Positions 2,359-14,241 of a DNA stretch of 25,516 bases are shown here, piece by piece; position 1 is the stretch's first letter, and each line of letters begins with the position of its first letter. Under the pieces are notes generated by a model. That model was not told where the DNA came from, did not search any database, and saw only the letters and a program-made list of their open reading frames with translations. Source of the DNA: a virus; IMG/VR virus record IMGVR_UViG_3300027759_000383, positions 1 through 25,516 of that record; one strand, written 5' to 3'. Position numbers and translations under genes: made by a program.

Positions 2359-3013
2359 GTTTTGTTTTTACTCCTACTCCTCTGAGAACTAAATCCATTT
2401 GACGCATTGAGGGAACTGTCCCTATGTAATCTAAAGCCTGTTCAATCTGCTCGGCTGTGTAGTTTCTTTTCTCTGCCGCTTGGCAGATTGCCAGTAGTGA
2501 GTGCCACGCACTTTTACCCAAAGGTTTAACTCTTTGCTTCTCCCACCATTTTCTAGCAACTGCTTCCGAGAGCGGGATAACTGCGACAGCAGTTTCATCG
2601 CTCTTTGTTGTAGATAGGACGGATGTATAGGACGGATGGTACGGAGTGGCGTTGGGGAGTTGAAGCCCTAGAGTTGGGGAGTTGGGGGTATCTGAGTTGG
2701 GGAGTTCTACATCCCCTAAACTTTGTTCCTCCCCAACAGAGTTGGGTAGTTTCTTCCATAACAACTGATAAACGGTTGCGTTGCCACGGGAGTTTCCCTT
2801 AGTAATAATCTTCAAGTGTCCATCGGCAATCATCTCGTTGATGACCTTTCGAACATATTCAACAGAGCATCGACCCTTGGTTGAGAGATTTGATTGAGAT
2901 GCAAAGAAGCGACCATCATCATGAGAAATATCTGCGAGCGCTAGGTGGATAAGTAGACGGGTTCCGTCGTAGGGCGAATCAGCCCAAACTTTTGTTATCC
3001 ACCTAATGCTCAC
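2297..3013 (-). CDS. Replication initiator protein with winged-helix N-terminus
   Basis: This 238-residue protein has three parts. Residues 1-86 look like a winged-helix DNA-binding domain, including FFASQSNLSTKGRCSVEYV and a basic wing near TKGNSRGNATVYQLL. Residues 88-133 are a low-complexity linker with repeated LPNS/PNSP units. Residues 140-238 form a helical domain (KWWEKQRVKPLGK...), as in phage O or DnaD-like replisome organisers. The order of DNA-binding domain, linker and helicase-recruiting domain matches lambda O-type initiators. The linker DNA holds regularly spaced repeats (annotated separately). It starts in an ATGA overlap with the HTH/zinc gene upstream and is followed by the possible helicase loader. 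No polymerase or helicase gene is in view, so host enzymes may be recruited. Confidence 0.75.
   Translation of the reverse strand: MSIRWITKVWADSPYDGTRLLIHLALADISHDDGRFFASQSNLSTKGRCSVEYVRKVINEMIADGHLKIITKGNSRGNATVYQLLWKKLPNSVGEEQSLGDVELPNSDTPNSPTLGLQLPNATPYHPSYTSVLSTTKSDETAVAVIPLSEAVARKWWEKQRVKPLGKSAWHSLLAICQAAEKRNYTAEQIEQALDYIGTVPSMRQMDLVLRGVGVKTKHEQSAIRAIDLAEKFRNESI
2614..2751 (-). repeat. Iteron-like repeats inside the initiator gene (candidate replication origin)
   Basis: The plus-strand unit GTTGGGGAGTT occurs perfectly at 2651-2661, 2673-2683 and 2696-2706. A one-mismatch copy (GTTGGGTAGTT) is at 2741-2751. Start-to-start spacings are 22, 23 and 45 bases, about two and four helical turns. 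A second pair of direct repeats, ATAGGACGGATG, lies at 2614-2625 and 2627-2638. All fall in the initiator's low-complexity linker. Lambda-type phages carry their origin iterons inside the O gene in the same position. The strand given is that of the gene. Confidence 0.5.
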
Positions 3014-7506: not shown

Positions 7507-9074
7507 TAGATGTCAGCCCTCGCTTTTGCACGATATGTAACTGTTTTATCAAGAGGGACTTCATAATCATTAAGTTCAGCAATCTGAGTAGCAGTAGCGG
7601 TTACTGGACTATTTCTAATTGCTGTGTATGTAATCGTGTCCTCGGAGCGCTCAATATCAAAAACAAATGTACTGAATCCACCTCGGGTAAATACTGGTTC
7701 ATCTCCAGCATGGAAAGCAATCTTGTCTACATAGTGAACTCCGCCTGAACTTGCGCTTACTATCTTAACAAATACTTGAGCGTGTGTTGCCGTAGGTGGA
7801 GCCAATACTGTTGCGTTTGCTGTAATAAAGGCTGAACTCGTTGCGCTAACCGCTGTTCCATAAGTTGTACTGATTGTGGTGCCAGTTGTAGTTAAATAAC
7901 GAATACCAACTTGGCATGAACGAGTAGTGCTACCTGCTCTAAAGTCAGCAATGGCTGAGAACTCTTGGTTTGCTGTTACTAAAAATTTTGTTGCGGTAGT
8001 GGTCGATGCAACTGCATCACCAGCCGCACTAGCAGTTACTTGTAAAGAAGCACTACCAATTGATGCTTGGGCGGTTGAACGAGCAATCGCGCAGTTAGTG
8101 GATGCTTCCCATCCAGTTGTATTTGTTTCAAGGGATGCTTGATTTGGGGATAAATTATTAGTTCGTCCAAAAACTGTTACGGTTACAGCCCCTTCAGTAG
8201 AATCATAAAACGCAGTAATCAATGGCGTTGCTGGAGCATCAACATCAATAGTAAATTGACTATAACCCCACTCGCTAAAGTAATTTGAACCATTAACTAA
8301 TTGAGCAACTCGAACATAGGCACGGTAAGTTGTGCCATCTGCTAAGTCTGCCTCAAGAGTTTGACCGTTATTACTTGATGTAACTATGCCAGTTGAAACT
8401 GTTGGTGTTGATGTATCCTCATCAAAACTTGCACCACCATAAGTTGTTGAGTCAAATACTTTAATCTCATAGGCGTTTTGTGGGTCACCGTCTGCATCTG
8501 CATAAGTCCAAACAACTGACGGAAATGTTGTATCTGTAACTGTTCCAGTAGGAGCAGTCACGGAAACCGTTGGTTGAGTAGTAGTAATTACATCTACATA
8601 CAATTCATATAAATTGGCGCGGTCACCGCTTGTGATTGCGTTATCTGCAAACTTAACTACAAGGTTATCAATTAAAGTTTGAGTCCAAGCCTCACCGTTT
8701 GGGGCTGTTGTAAGTTTTAGAGCAGTATCAATGGTAGTTAGCGCAAGTGTGTTTGCCTTTGAAAAAGGAACTGAGTAACTCACGGTACGACCATTACGGT
8801 CTGTAATAACACCAAGGCTTAACTCAATAGAACCTGTTGTTCCAATACTTGTTCTTGCTCGAAGATTTACAAAGGCAACCTTCTCAGTAGCCGCTAAAGT
8901 TTGTGTACCAAACTCTGCCTCATAAGATGCTGAAACTGTTGTACTGGTACGGGTTATGAAAGTTGAGTCGCTAGTGTCAGAAAGCGCCGCATGAACTGAG
9001 GCAGACCCGCCTGAAATAGTAAAGGCAGAGTTATTGTTCCAGTTCGCGTTAGGGCGAAGTACATAAGTAGCCAT
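7506..9074 (-). CDS. Minor tail protein with fibronectin-III-like and carbohydrate-binding-like domains
   Basis: This 522-residue protein is rich in Ser and Thr. Residues 1-160 form a beta-rich N-terminal domain (probable tail attachment). About 166-278 look like fibronectin type III (VSVTAPTGTVTDTTFPSVVW ... YRAYVRVAQLVNG). About 305-455 resemble a CBM_4_9 or jelly-roll sugar-binding module (SLETNTTGWEASTNCAI ... THAQVFVKIVSASSGGVHYV). It lies immediately downstream of the tape measure with a one-base overlap. A role in tail-tip structure and weak binding to cell-surface glycans is likely. Confidence 0.78.
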   Translation of the reverse strand: MATYVLRPNANWNNNSAFTISGGSASVHAALSDTSDSTFITRTSTTVSASYEAEFGTQTLAATEKVAFVNLRARTSIGTTGSIELSLGVITDRNGRTVSYSVPFSKANTLALTTIDTALKLTTAPNGEAWTQTLIDNLVVKFADNAITSGDRANLYELYVDVITTTQPTVSVTAPTGTVTDTTFPSVVWTYADADGDPQNAYEIKVFDSTTYGGASFDEDTSTPTVSTGIVTSSNNGQTLEADLADGTTYRAYVRVAQLVNGSNYFSEWGYSQFTIDVDAPATPLITAFYDSTEGAVTVTVFGRTNNLSPNQASLETNTTGWEASTNCAIARSTAQASIGSASLQVTASAAGDAVASTTTATKFLVTANQEFSAIADFRAGSTTRSCQVGIRYLTTTGTTISTTYGTAVSATSSAFITANATVLAPPTATHAQVFVKIVSASSGGVHYVDKIAFHAGDEPVFTRGGFSTFVFDIERSEDTITYTAIRNSPVTATATQIAELNDYEVPLDKTVTYRAKARADI

Positions 9075-12000
9075 TATTTGTTAGCCAATTCTTTTGCCAA
9101 GATAGCGAATGTCTCTTGAATTCTTTTTGTAATAATGTCAGCCTTTTCGCCTTGGTCTGATGCACCTGATGTATCAACATTGACCACAAACGCGCCCTGC
9201 TCAATAACTACATTGTTTCCACCAGCACCCCTGATGCTTGCTTCGGTACCTGTAATCTGAGCAATACCAGCCTGAGCGCTTGCAATCTTTTGACCGAACG
9301 CCGCCTCTGAACCAAACTTACCAATCGCCGCACCTGTAAATGCAATTGACTTTTGAATCTCGTTAATCTGAGCAATCGCATCAGCACCGCCACCAAGAAT
9401 TGACGCCGCAAGTTGAGCGCCCTTAATTGGTCCTGATTCAACTAAATCTTTAATTGCACCCGCATCTAAACCAAGTGCTTGTAGTTGAGTTATCTGATTA
9501 GCAAACTGTTGGCTCTTATCCAAACGAGTCCGCATATTTTCAATAAGAGACTTTGCCTTTGGAATAAAACCATCAGGAAGTTCCACACCCTTGAGTCCAG
9601 CAAAATTCATAATCGTGTCTTTTAGGGAATCTGCAAAGTCCTTAGCCGCTTGTTGCAAGTCTTGTAGAACATCAGTCATTGACTCAATGCCAGCCTTCAT
9701 TGCTTCACGAATCTTTTTCATTAAATCTGCTTGGTCTTGAATATCACCTAAAGCATCTTCGGTTCCATTCCCAGGCAAACCTGCCGCTTTTTCGCGTTCT
9801 TTTTTAAGAATGTCCCCAAAGCCAAGACCTTCTTTAAGACTGTCTTTAATTGTTTCTATGAAGTTACTAATTCCGTCGCCAGCCGCCGCCGCAAAATCTG
9901 TTGTCTCTGCAAACGCCAACATCTGAGTTGAAAGATTGATTAAGTAATCGCCAGCCGCGTCAGCCTTGTCAGCCACGCTATCAATGAACTTTCCTACTGT
10001 TCCAGCAAAATCAAACTTAACTGCTTCACCAAGGGCATCAATCATTGTCCCTAAAGCGAGTGATGCCGTCTTTGCCCCACCAACTAAACCTTCAATAAGT
10101 TTTGCGCCGTTGTCTTTATTTCCAAATTCTTCAACTTTGACTGCAAACTTAGTAAGAGTTTTTTCTGTTGCTCTTAATCCTTTTTCAACTGAATCTCCGA
10201 CGGTAGATATGCCATTGACTGTTTTTGTTACTCCGCTAAGAATTCCGTCAAATGCTGTTTTACCAAACCCTACAAGAGTAGATGCAAAACCTGTGACTAA
10301 TGCTTGACCAGCCGCGAGACCGCTTTTAATACCGCTTGAAATTTGAGCGCCAACTAAAGGAATTTTTTCAAATAGAGCCGCAAGCGATTTAATCCATCCA
10401 GTTAATTTATCAAAAACAAAACCAAGAAATTTGCCTACCCCTTGGGCTATATCATCTAAAATACCAAAAATGCCTTCGCCAACCTTAGAGATAGCATTTA
10501 AGATTGCTAAAAATATACTCTTAACTCCTCCATATAATTTATTGAAAACTCCAACCAAGTCAGCAACAGCCCCGATAACAAACGCAAAGACTCTAACTAT
10601 GCCTTCAACAACTAAAGAAATTACCTTGATGATTGCATTAAATATGGTCTTGACTACATCATAAAGAGTTCCTTGGGCTTCCATAAACATGATGAAAGCA
10701 TCAACAACAAACTTAATTGCCTTAAGTATAAATTTATACCAAGTCAAAATAATGTCAATTACGAACTCAAAGACCATGGCAACAACTTCTGCAAAGAAGC
10801 CAATCACCCGCATAATAGAAGCAAAGGCTTTTATTACATAACCAATAGCCTTAACAATGTATGCAAATACGCTAATTACAACTTTAGCAATAAAGTTAAA
10901 GACTGTCTTAAACGCATCACCTACTGATTTATTTGTTTTAATTAAATAACCAAGCGCAACTAATAAAGCAACAATTACTCCAATAAAGAGTGGAATAGGG
11001 TTCAAGGCTATGGTCATATTTAATATAGCCACGGCAGTTCTTAAAGCAGTTATGACTGTTGTGGTTGCCGCGGTGACGGTTCCCCAAATTACCGTTGCGG
11101 CTGTGGTCAGTAGTATGGCTGTTCTATATGCACCATAACCCAAAGCAACTGCCCCAATTACAACTCCTAAAGCCTTAAACACTTCAGCAAACCTTTGAAC
11201 AAAACTTATAGTTGATGAAACTATGGAGGCAACAAGTCTTATAGCCTTAGCAAGAACACCAATGGCTAGAGCAGATACCTCTGTAAATACCGCTCCAACT
11301 TTTTTAAGTATTGGTAGGAGTGGTGCAAAAGCGGTTATTAGTTGTCCCAATGCTGTTCGTATTTGAGGAGATGTTAAAACAAGAGCAAAAAACGCAAAAA
11401 GTTTTGCGTATCCATTTAGGGCGTTAAAAAAGCCTTGGAAGAAAGGAGCCGCTTGTGACAAAGATTTACCTGCTCGGATACCAAAAAAAGTAGTAAACGC
11501 TAATGCAACAGGCAAAACTTTTTCCATAGTCTCGGCAATTCCATTAACACTTATTTTACTTTTATCTACTTTTTCAATAAAGTTACCTAAGTTTGTTGCC
11601 ATTTTTGCAATCGGGTCTGATAATTTAGTTAATACTTTCTCCATGGCATCAAGGAATTTAGAAAAAGTTCCGCTTCCTTCTGATGCTTTTGTAAATTTAG
11701 TAGACAACTCAAGAGCAGATAAAATTATTTTACTAAAAGCATTGAGTAATCTTGACCCAACTGCTTCTTGCAATTTTCTAGTTTGGTCGCCCATTTCTTT
11801 TAAGGCTCGAGATGGGCTTTGTATTGCTAGGGCATAAGCACCTTGAACCTTTGTTCCCTCTTTTAGAATAAAATTCATTACTGCTTGGCGTCTTTCAGCC
11901 ATATTTAACTCACTAGCACTCTTACCTATTGTTCGTCCATAGATAGTAAAAGCCTCGGTAGCCCCAGTTGTAATACCAATCTGACGCAACATTCTTGTTT

Positions 12001-12481
12001 GCCCAGTTGTAACAGCAAAGATTAAAGTCTGTAAAGCATCAGCAGAACTTACACTTGATGTAACAGATAAATTTTGAGCAACGGTGGCTAATTGAGTAGC
12101 GTTACCTAAATCAACATTTGACTGAGCAAGTTTAATAACTGCTCGTTGGGCGCCTACCGCGGATATTCCAACATTTTTAATTTCTTCAACTGCAATAGAA
12201 AGTTGTTGATAGCCGTAGCGGGTGGACTGACCAATAGCCTGTAAAGCAATATCTAACTCTTGAACTTCAGCGGCGGCTTTGAATGACTTGGTAGCAAAAA
12301 CAATCAAACCAATAGCCGCGGTTGCGGCAACAGCGCCAAGCGCCGTTAAACTTCCATTTAGTCTGCCAGCCGCTACTTGAAAATTTTCAGCACTTTTAGA
12401 TGCTTCTTGTAAACCTTTTGTGAATTGAGCAGAATCAGCGGTGAGGCGAGCGCGGACTTCCATGGTTGGTGAATCAGCCAT
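9074..12481 (-). CDS. Tail tape measure protein
   Basis: At 1135 residues this is the largest gene in the window. The N-terminus (MEVRARLTADSAQFTKGLQE) is typical of siphovirus tape measure proteins. Long helical and hydrophobic segments follow, including many Val/Ile/Ala/Phe stretches between about residues 330 and 690 that resemble membrane spans, then Lys/Ala-rich helices and an Asp/Gly-containing C-terminus. No lysozyme or peptidase motif was seen. The protein sets tail length and travels with the DNA; at about 1.5 angstrom per residue the tail would be near 170 nm. It starts directly after the TAA of the frameshifted chaperone reading frame, the classical order. Confidence 0.95.
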   Translation of the reverse strand: MADSPTMEVRARLTADSAQFTKGLQEASKSAENFQVAAGRLNGSLTALGAVAATAAIGLIVFATKSFKAAAEVQELDIALQAIGQSTRYGYQQLSIAVEEIKNVGISAVGAQRAVIKLAQSNVDLGNATQLATVAQNLSVTSSVSSADALQTLIFAVTTGQTRMLRQIGITTGATEAFTIYGRTIGKSASELNMAERRQAVMNFILKEGTKVQGAYALAIQSPSRALKEMGDQTRKLQEAVGSRLLNAFSKIILSALELSTKFTKASEGSGTFSKFLDAMEKVLTKLSDPIAKMATNLGNFIEKVDKSKISVNGIAETMEKVLPVALAFTTFFGIRAGKSLSQAAPFFQGFFNALNGYAKLFAFFALVLTSPQIRTALGQLITAFAPLLPILKKVGAVFTEVSALAIGVLAKAIRLVASIVSSTISFVQRFAEVFKALGVVIGAVALGYGAYRTAILLTTAATVIWGTVTAATTTVITALRTAVAILNMTIALNPIPLFIGVIVALLVALGYLIKTNKSVGDAFKTVFNFIAKVVISVFAYIVKAIGYVIKAFASIMRVIGFFAEVVAMVFEFVIDIILTWYKFILKAIKFVVDAFIMFMEAQGTLYDVVKTIFNAIIKVISLVVEGIVRVFAFVIGAVADLVGVFNKLYGGVKSIFLAILNAISKVGEGIFGILDDIAQGVGKFLGFVFDKLTGWIKSLAALFEKIPLVGAQISSGIKSGLAAGQALVTGFASTLVGFGKTAFDGILSGVTKTVNGISTVGDSVEKGLRATEKTLTKFAVKVEEFGNKDNGAKLIEGLVGGAKTASLALGTMIDALGEAVKFDFAGTVGKFIDSVADKADAAGDYLINLSTQMLAFAETTDFAAAAGDGISNFIETIKDSLKEGLGFGDILKKEREKAAGLPGNGTEDALGDIQDQADLMKKIREAMKAGIESMTDVLQDLQQAAKDFADSLKDTIMNFAGLKGVELPDGFIPKAKSLIENMRTRLDKSQQFANQITQLQALGLDAGAIKDLVESGPIKGAQLAASILGGGADAIAQINEIQKSIAFTGAAIGKFGSEAAFGQKIASAQAGIAQITGTEASIRGAGGNNVVIEQGAFVVNVDTSGASDQGEKADIITKRIQETFAILAKELANK

Positions 12482-12661
12482 TTATCTCCTAGCCTTCGCT
12501 CTTCTCTCGGCTTTCTCGCGTTCTTTTTCTTTTACGATATAGAAAGCGTTCCACTCAGTTAATTCCATACTGCTAAGTGGGCGGTGGGATTGGCTTCCGT
12601 AAAGAAGTTCTCCCACCGTCCGACCTAACTTTTCTGCTAATTCAAAAAGAAACCGTCTCTC
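12482..12661 (-). CDS. Tail assembly chaperone, C-terminal extension made by +1 (or -2) frameshift
   Basis: This 59-codon extension has no start codon near its beginning and is read only after a frameshift near the end of the 12660-13022 gene. Its sequence, ERRFLFELAEKLGRTVGELL ... MELTEWNAFY followed by a Lys/Arg/Glu-rich tail, is the hallmark of the T part of lambda GT-type chaperones. The open frame begins after a TAG at 12697-12695, so the shift lies between there and the TGA at 12662-12660. The -1 frame closes quickly with TAG. Candidate sites are UUU-C (Phe tRNA can re-pair) and UCC-UGA at the stop. The fused product would be about 179 residues. The frame ends right before the tape measure ATG. 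Confidence 0.85.
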   Translation of the reverse strand, partial: ERRFLFELAEKLGRTVGELLYGSQSHRPLSSMELTEWNAFYIVKEKEREKAERRAKARR

Positions 12662-13022
12662 AGGATTCTTTAGGAAATCGTGCCTGTGCTTCGTCTACCG
12701 CCTTTTCGCCTAGACCTGAACTGCCAAGAGCCTTTGTTGCCAAACGCTCAATGACTGCGCCATTCTTAGAAAGAATTGCTTCACGGTCTTGCTCTGTAAA
12801 GACTGGCAGACCCGTTGTAGGGTCAAACACAGTTGCGATAACAGTCTTTGCGTACATATTAGAAACATCCACTTTGTCTGCCGAGGTTGCCCCCTCAGTA
12901 AGTGTTGCTCGTTGTCCTGCTGTCATAGAACGAATCTCTACTGTAACTTTCCATTCAGGAACTTCCAGTAATTCTCTCGTAATATCATCAGCCGAAAATA
13001 TCTTTCCGCGTAAATCTGTCAT
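12660..13022 (-). CDS. Tail assembly chaperone, N-terminal product (G-like)
   Basis: This 120-residue protein has the motif VPEWKVTVEIRSMTAGQRAT (about residues 21-40) and a helical remainder, as in siphovirus tail assembly chaperones. These bind the tape measure and recruit tail-tube subunits but are absent from the finished tail. It lies between the tail-tube genes and the tape measure, the canonical position. The ribosome site AAGGAGAAAAG precedes the ATG. Its stop codon UGA lies within the candidate frameshift site for the longer product. Confidence 0.88.
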   Translation of the reverse strand: MTDLRGKIFSADDITRELLEVPEWKVTVEIRSMTAGQRATLTEGATSADKVDVSNMYAKTVIATVFDPTTGLPVFTEQDREAILSKNGAVIERLATKALGSSGLGEKAVDEAQARFPKES

Positions 13023-13088
13023 TTCTTTTCTCCTTGGGACACTAGGTTGGTCACGATAAATTATTTAGTTTTTTTGAATCAATTCCTA

Positions 13089-13505
13089 TTAAGCGTAGGT
13101 ACCGCGAGTAACTGCACCTGTCACTTGGAACTCGGCTGAGTATGTCACTACATCTCCGATAGCACCACTCTTCTCGTAAGAAGTTAGAAGTGCCTCTCCT
13201 GTGTACTTGACATATCCTGCTGTTGAACCTTCAGGACCGTACTCGAATGAAACTGAGTCTGCTTTTCCTACGATAGCCGCTAGGTGAGCATCAACTGTTG
13301 CATCAAAATTACCTGATACTGAAAGCGTTGCATCTGATAGCCCAACTACATAAGACTTTGCTGAGGAACCAAAAGCGCTGGTCTCGGCTGTGTCTACTGA
13401 TTGTGGGAATGAAACATCTGTAAGGGTATTGCTAATATCGGTAAGTGACCCCGCGTTGTTGTCTACCTTGAATACGGTGGATTTACCATGTCTAAATGTT
13501 GGCAT
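13089..13505 (-). CDS. Major tail (tube) protein, short paralog
   Basis: This 138-residue tail-tube-like protein starts MPTFRHGKSTVFKVDNNAGS, with SVDTAETSAFGSSAKSYVVG in the middle. The TSAFGxSAKxYVVGxxDxTxSxSGxF core is shared with the next gene upstream. The start was set at 13505 because AGGAGGT sits six bases before that ATG; the frame extended to 13673 merely overlaps the upstream paralog. The later segment (VSFEYGPEGS ... GDVVTYSAEFQVTGAVTRGT) completes a beta-barrel tube fold. It would polymerise around the tape measure, possibly mixed with the longer paralog. Confidence 0.88.
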   Translation of the reverse strand: MPTFRHGKSTVFKVDNNAGSLTDISNTLTDVSFPQSVDTAETSAFGSSAKSYVVGLSDATLSVSGNFDATVDAHLAAIVGKADSVSFEYGPEGSTAGYVKYTGEALLTSYEKSGAIGDVVTYSAEFQVTGAVTRGTYA

Positions 13506-13509
13506 TTTT

Positions 13510-14241
13510 TTACCTCCTAGTAAAAGCCACCACAGGGGTAGCCGAGCCTGATGAACCTGCGACTGTGTATACAACTCGTAGGTATCGATTGATTGTTGTT
13601 CCGCTTGCAACCTCAACTCTTTCTGAGGTTTTCTGAGTGCTTGTAACGGTTGTGAAAGATACAAGGTCAGCAAAAGTTGAGTTATCTGCTGAGTGTTGAA
13701 CCTTTACACCGATTGTTCCGTTACGGGTATTTACTGGAACTGACAAGAATCCCGCTCCGCCATTTAAGGAGGAAGTGGTGTTATCTACGCCCGTTCCATT
13801 TCCAGTCGCGGAAACAGTAGAACCTGAAGAAAGAATCTTCCCGTGTTCAACTGCATCTGTTGATTGGAATTCTGCGCTTGCTTGGACAACATCTGCGATG
13901 GCACTTGAGACCTCGTAGGATGTATCGTCTGCAATTAACATGATTGCTCCTGCGGCAACTGAATTACCTTGAGGAGCCACAATTATTTTATTTTTTGTTG
14001 CGGAGGCAAGAGCGGTTGCAAAAAAATCATCTGTTCCTGTGGATGCAGTTCCTTCAAACATTCCTGAAAGAGAGATTGTTCCATCTCGGTGACCAACTAC
14101 ATAGGTCTTTGCGCTTGTACCAAAGGCGCTTGTCTCGGCGGTATCAACACTTGTTGAAGCGCTGACATCATTAAAGTAAGTAGAAAAATCAAACTCGTTA
14201 ATAAATACATTAACATTTTTACCATGGGCGAATGTAGGCAT
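13510..14241 (-). CDS. Major tail (tube) protein, long paralog with extra C-terminal domain
   Basis: This 243-residue protein has a tube domain at about residues 1-135, starting MPTFAHGKNVNVFINEFDFS and carrying SVDTAETSAFGTSAKTYVVG and VVQASAEFQSTDAV. It matches the short paralog downstream along its length. Residues 140-243 add a beta-sandwich-like domain (VKVQHSADNSTFADLVSFTT ... INRYLRVVYTVAGSSGS), like the Ig or fibronectin decorations on many tail tubes. The start overlaps the stop of the gene upstream by one base. Both paralogs have the signature of a tail-tube gene duplication. Confidence 0.88.
   Translation of the reverse strand: MPTFAHGKNVNVFINEFDFSTYFNDVSASTSVDTAETSAFGTSAKTYVVGHRDGTISLSGMFEGTASTGTDDFFATALASATKNKIIVAPQGNSVAAGAIMLIADDTSYEVSSAIADVVQASAEFQSTDAVEHGKILSSGSTVSATGNGTGVDNTTSSLNGGAGFLSVPVNTRNGTIGVKVQHSADNSTFADLVSFTTVTSTQKTSERVEVASGTTINRYLRVVYTVAGSSGSATPVVAFTRR

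Follow-up and report, generated by a model that had tools for sequence, protein, structure and literature searches.

Comparative sequence evidence for a probable +1 frameshift at CGA_UUU_C in a phage tail assembly chaperone gene with mostly -1 homologues

Analysis of a 25,516-base viral record (43% G+C; this whole stretch of DNA is hereafter called the window) revealed a minus-strand gene, belonging to a freshwater phage, that, on comparative evidence, very probably encodes two tail assembly chaperones, a short form and a frameshifted long form, in the manner of lambda G/GT. We hold with high confidence that these products, of 120 and 179 aa, would arise through a +1 slip of the P-site tRNA at CGA_UUU_C (12674-12680, minus strand; CGA at 12680-12678, UUU at 12677-12675 and C at 12674). 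Most ribosomes would stop at the zero-frame UGA and release the 120-aa protein, while a fraction would shift +1 at CGA_UUU_C and synthesize the 179-aa fusion, with the junction ...AQARF-LKNPERR.... In this mechanism, tRNA-Phe in the P site would re-pair from UUU to UUC. An inosine tRNA would be expected to decode CGA, and the weak inosine:A pairing of that tRNA in the E site would help the shift; the codon that follows (CCU, CCA or CAU) may contribute further by being filled slowly.

Sequence profiles, predicted structure and gene order identify the product. The short zero-frame form (12660-13022, minus strand) matched the tail assembly chaperone family phrog_344 in a profile search (E = 1.1e-23) and PF06222 (Phage_TAC_1) at 25.4 bits, barely over the cut-off of 25, and a sequence search of the PDB returned nothing significant. 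The AlphaFold2 model of the 120-aa product (24 aligned homologues, mean pLDDT 85.3) found the HK97 tail assembly chaperone 2ob9 as its top fold match (Foldseek E = 1.3e-4), and VIA-align superposed the two with Z 12.1 and rmsd 4.1 over 100 aligned positions. The 179-aa fusion (P0003) matched phrog_14766 over residues 17-160 and phrog_25875 over residues 27-173, PHROG chaperone/tail profiles that both span the junction.

The minus-strand gene order is major tail protein 1 (13510-14241; phrog_9522, E = 8.5e-69), major tail protein 2 (13089-13502; phrog_10528, E = 2.9e-53, and PF06199) directly upstream of the chaperone, the chaperone itself and the tape measure protein gene (9074-12481; phrog_58, phrog_1272 and phrog_305, together with matches to phage tape measure proteins), whose ATG (12481) adjoins the TAA that closes the extension (12484-12482). 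The same synteny of two major tail proteins, chaperone and tape measure occurs in Kovu, Salgado and Ottawa, and with the phrog_344, PF06222 and 2ob9 matches it upholds the initial annotation of the gene as a tail assembly chaperone. Chaperone homology, placement between major tail protein and tape measure genes, and an overlapping, conserved frame that encodes a C-terminal extension are all present, as in the lambda G/GT kind. The two major tail protein genes each also match the other's family (phrog_9522 and phrog_10528), and Salgado, Kovu and Ottawa likewise have such a pair ahead of their chaperone genes. No tRNA gene was found in the window. An actinobacterium is a plausible candidate host of the phage, since Arthrobacter or Streptomyces is the host in 25 of the 26 named phage records that matched.

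The 3′ end of the chaperone gene reads ...GCA CGA TTT CCT AAA GAA TCC TGA. Its zero frame (13022-12660) encodes 120 aa with the C-terminus ...ARFPKES and ends at the UGA (12662-12660, minus strand), which is CGA in one relative, L166. The extension that forms the C-terminal part of the fusion (12482-12673, minus strand) consists of 63 codons (12673-12485) followed by TAA, in a +1 frame that is open in the window from a TAG (12697-12695, minus strand); this upstream limit is absent from L150, L151, L152 and L171. The coordinates and frames of the initial annotation, which placed the extension in a frame formally reachable by a +1 or a -2 shift and offered UUU-C (12677-12674) or UCC-UGA (12665-12660) as the site, are correct. 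It also stated that the -1 frame closes quickly with TAG; the rapid closure stands, but the first stop is a TAA (12672-12670) right after the site, and the TAG (12639-12637) comes second. This layout is not that of a -1 slippery heptamer (X_XXY_YYZ), the -1 frame being closed and the extension lying in +1.

Relatives from IMG/VR comprised 299 loci, two of the match lists being limited to the best 80 of 125 and the best 80 of 295 matches, with contigs recurring between lists. An NPE-type extension motif with enough upstream sequence was present at 251 loci, and among the matches listed CGATTTC occurred directly ahead of the motif in all 251 and in each of the 102 distinct 400-nt sequences anchored on it. 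Four further loci (L004, L037, L071 and L149) end at a contig edge, and the first three still have CGA TTT CCT. Across the 102 distinct sequences the codon ahead of CGA varies, while the A-site codon is CCT in 94, CCA in 6 and CAT in 2. The sequence properties of the UUU_C class of sites are recognizable here, with UUU_C at the frame change, restricted neighbours and CGA always immediately 5′ (102/102). Codon choice is constrained: among 67 near-invariant columns with a synonymous alternative, only four use a single codon in 97 of 97 sequences (AAG, GCG, CGA and TTT), and between two and four codons appear in each of the other invariant columns for Arg and Phe.

Substitution patterns in the 97 distinct relatives used for change-point analysis locate the change of frame. 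Upstream, variable columns are distributed 17/10/52 over frame-0 codon positions; downstream, they are distributed 12/7/29 over +1 codon positions, the same columns reading 29/12/7 in frame 0. The +1-shift model (lnL -167.4) was ahead of no shift (-201.1) by 33.6 units and of a -1 shift (-198.6) by 31.1, a fit that rejects a -1 frameshift in the window gene. The best change points lie 2, 5 or 8 nt past the C of CGA, with a 2-lnL range of -9 to +9. The first codon past UUU_C is CTC in 37 sequences, CTA in 34, CTG in 25 and ATC in one, variation that, ATC excepted, is silent in the +1 frame and exchanges K, Q and E in frame 0. Because the fusion matches PHROG profiles across the junction and the downstream columns follow the +1 codon positions, the predicted extension is more than a chance open frame. 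Sequence comparison thus establishes a conserved fusion frame, the place where the frame changes, the invariance of CGA UUU C and homology to chaperones that shift -1; the overlapping frames are real, and the predicted frameshift is very probably functional. Of the two sites first offered, UUU-C is the one borne out, by the change point, the CGATTTC count and the silent CTN variation.

The other site, UCC_UGA, would act as in antizyme and give a +1 shift at the zero-frame stop. It is conserved in almost all relatives, yet selection on the +1 frame begins upstream of it: since CTN already varies synonymously in +1 ahead of UCC_UGA, the latter lies downstream of the frame change. L166 has UCC CGA and nevertheless retains the extension, and a further +1 relative, Mae-JY09 (described below), lacks UCC_UGA altogether. 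An antizyme-type shift is scarcely credible on these grounds, and we reject it. In L166 the short product would extend two codons to a UAG.

Alternatively, the extension could be a separate protein with its own start, or the frame break a sequencing error. Two open chaperone frames are expressed separately in some Microbacterium phages, according to the portion of PMC7302621 available. In the window, however, the conserved first 19 residues of the extension, LKNPERRFLFELAEKLGRT, precede any in-frame ATG, GTG or TTG; the identical frame break recurs in 102 distinct sequences, and the fusion profiles align across the junction. A separate protein or an erroneous break is accordingly extremely improbable.

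A -2 shift would enter the identical reading frame, and phage Mu demonstrates, in the part of PMC3498833 available, that such a shift is possible in a chaperone gene. GCN CGA UUU CCU permits no re-pairing after a -2 slip, the codon preceding CGA is variable, and the invariant core fits a slip from UUU to UUC, so that we consider -2 very unlikely. We infer a +1 shift instead because tRNA-Phe can re-pair from UUU to UUC, whereas -2 needs mismatches. More weight, though still that of an unlikely reading, goes to a Ty3-like +1 shift in which CGA occupies the P site, peptidyl-tRNA-Arg stays in place, the U is skipped and UUC is decoded, with the same product, ARF-LKN. The invariance of CGA agrees with it, and the available text of PMC5009743 reports that the GCG of the Ty3 site can be exchanged for CGA and considers the I:A apposition. 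Any skipped base would do in such a shift, yet T is found in 102 of 102 distinct sequences, and this invariant T contrasts with the frame-0 residues just past the site, which change freely.

The P-site slip on UUU_C thus remains the preferred reading, and a role for CGA in the E site agrees with the same portion of PMC5009743, where I:A pairs are described as weak and weak E-site pairing is proposed to favour +1 shifting in RF2. Rare-codon hunger in the window phage finds no support: CGA supplies 62 of the 304 Arg codons in the window genes and CCU 107 of the 258 Pro codons, so neither is rare. The motif by itself is not sufficient, because, among the matches listed in a pattern scan of genome and viral contigs (at least 115 genome stretches and 5 viral), none of 120 matched the chaperone profile.

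A downstream pseudoknot, for which the initial annotation had suggested a search, was not found adjacent to the site, nor was a stem or other stimulator: over the 60 or 80 nt that follow it, 16 of the 17 rows sampled fold no better than shuffled sequences (z from -0.32 to +1.63; L076, -1.92 and -0.85). Rfam gave no match at E <= 1 in 12400-13100. Farther downstream, 53 nt 3′ of UUU_C and inside the extension, lies a covarying RNA hairpin (12579-12621, minus strand; folding z -4.89), for which an alignment of 56 sequences has 50 cells changed on both sides of the stem, compared with 8.1 after shuffling and no more than 15 in slid controls; in L180, a His to Tyr change keeps the hairpin pair. 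The hairpin also occurs in the nearest -1 clade (L193-L204) and in L082, L083, L089 and L090, and most of six Arthrobacter phages have a hairpin at the corresponding position (five with z between -1.88 and -3.59; Ottawa, 0.48). Being common to these -1 relatives, it does not set the direction of the shift, and it was rejected as a direction signal.

Upstream, an AAG GCG GTA block (12696-12704, minus strand) stands almost unchanged 8 to 6 codons before CGA, its AAG and GCG being two of the four single-codon columns (97/97). Its status as a required element is weakened by the basal L247 and L265, which have ACG or ACA GCG in place of AAG GCG and retain CGA TTT C. Pairing of the upstream GGCGGT with the 3′ arm of the hairpin is not supported, as GGCGGT does not change in the 12 of 97 sequences that have CCGACC in that arm. 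Apart from one mismatch the block looks like a Shine-Dalgarno sequence, but its spacing would be unusually long.

The remaining 44 IMG/VR loci (L193-L235 and L274) are -1 types. GGA AAA or AAA AAC lies ahead of the zero-frame stop in 43 of 43 loci from L193 to L235, and L274 has AAA AAC. Automatic frame choice had called eight -1 rows +1 through a longer chance frame (L218, L220, L221, L222, L225, L228, L229 and L230); L218 and L221 have the homologous extension in -1, and the other six share their GGA AAA GGC TCC context. Homologues in Arthrobacter and Streptomyces phages likewise point to -1 shifting at GGA_AAA or GGA_AAC, and in Kovu, Ottawa and Dubu the joined chaperone features are of the length that a -1 shift gives. 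The initial annotation had regarded -1 as the common direction in such genes, and these homologues agree. The predicted shift direction has changed within one gene family, because homologues outside the +1 clade use ordinary -1 sites. Four Rhodococcus phage loci (L237-L240) have TTC-containing junctions (GGT TTC, TCT TTC and GAT TTC) and a -1 extension, and among these junctions only GGT TTC fits the usual heptamer.

Phylogenetic reconstruction of 51 rows placed +1 twice: 21 freshwater rows group together, and Mae-JY09 falls among -1 rows from Streptomyces and Rhodococcus phages. With the long rows L227 and L235 dropped, and with Mae-JY09 itself a long branch, none of 200 bootstrap trees joined the +1 rows, and the AU test (p = 0.077) does not reject a single origin. 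Mae-JY09 (L085; PP395641, 2450-3002) is a Microcystis phage, its host being given as Microcystis, with 71% G+C in the part fetched. It has GCC CGA TTT CCT GAG followed by a +1 extension, and its fusion is 36% identical to that of the window. In its sampled genes TTT accounts for 2 of 39 Phe codons and CCT for 1 of 30 Pro codons, counts that include the site, and a chance occurrence of the site is unlikely. Mae-JY09 likely represents a second, convergent origin of the +1 shift. Its annotation gives two hypothetical proteins at 2450-3002, where a single tail assembly chaperone with a +1 frameshift is very probably encoded. No further Mae-JY09-like chaperones were found in the viral contigs or genome contigs searched.

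Comparison with known systems places the window gene near the lambda G/GT type, represented by the HK97 fold and the Laroyevirus and Streptomyces chaperones, with which it shares a homologous protein, gene order and a frameshift near the 3′ end; theirs is -1 on GGA_AAA, GGA_AAC or AAA_AAC, whereas that of the window is predicted to be +1 on CGA_UUU_C. No description of a CGA_UUU_C chaperone site was found in the open-licence PMC literature. To the extent that the sources were available, the site comes closest to two precedents, the TTT-CGC predicted in the HF1-group haloviruses, which is the nearest, and the UUU_C of influenza A PA-X. In the HF1 group, the chaperone is predicted to shift +1 at a TTT-CGC within a conserved 15-bp stretch, conventional slippery sequences are apparently absent and experiments are called for, as the available part of PMC7230728 states; those are archaeal myoviruses with TTT-CGC, whereas the window has UUU_C behind an invariant CGA and CCU, CCA or CAU in the A site. 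PA-X (UCC_UUU_CGU), in the available part of PMC3498833, has the P-site slip from UUU to UUC that is proposed for the window, deduced there from the product peptide; its E-site codon also had an effect, and further UUU_C sites were predicted as a class. PA-X differs in being translated by eukaryotic ribosomes, in having a rare CGU as its A-site codon, in shifting at low efficiency and in a direction established by that peptide. Listeria phage PSA likewise shifts +1 in structural genes, but at the proline codon of CCC_U, in its capsid and tail shaft genes and with a stop codon or pseudoknot as stimulator, as far as the excerpt of PMC5009743 extends. The available parts of PMC5009743 and PMC8211752 also refer to a +1 case in HSTV-2.

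A broader proposal is that CGA_UUU_C is a bacterial +1 signal that replaced a -1 heptamer at least twice, in the freshwater phages and in Mae-JY09, with CGA acting through a weak inosine:A pair in the E site and selection keeping two products while the direction reversed; we advance it tentatively, giving it slightly less than an even chance. Sites of forward frameshifting are difficult to recognize in phages, and no general forward-frameshift motif is known according to the portion of PMC10885494 (PRFect) available. An invariant seven-base site (102 distinct sequences) beside backward-shifting homologues constitutes a natural experiment on shift direction, and with CGA_UUU_C the part played by the E-site codon can be tested directly in bacteria. 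The reading proposed here would also correct the annotation of a common group of freshwater phages.
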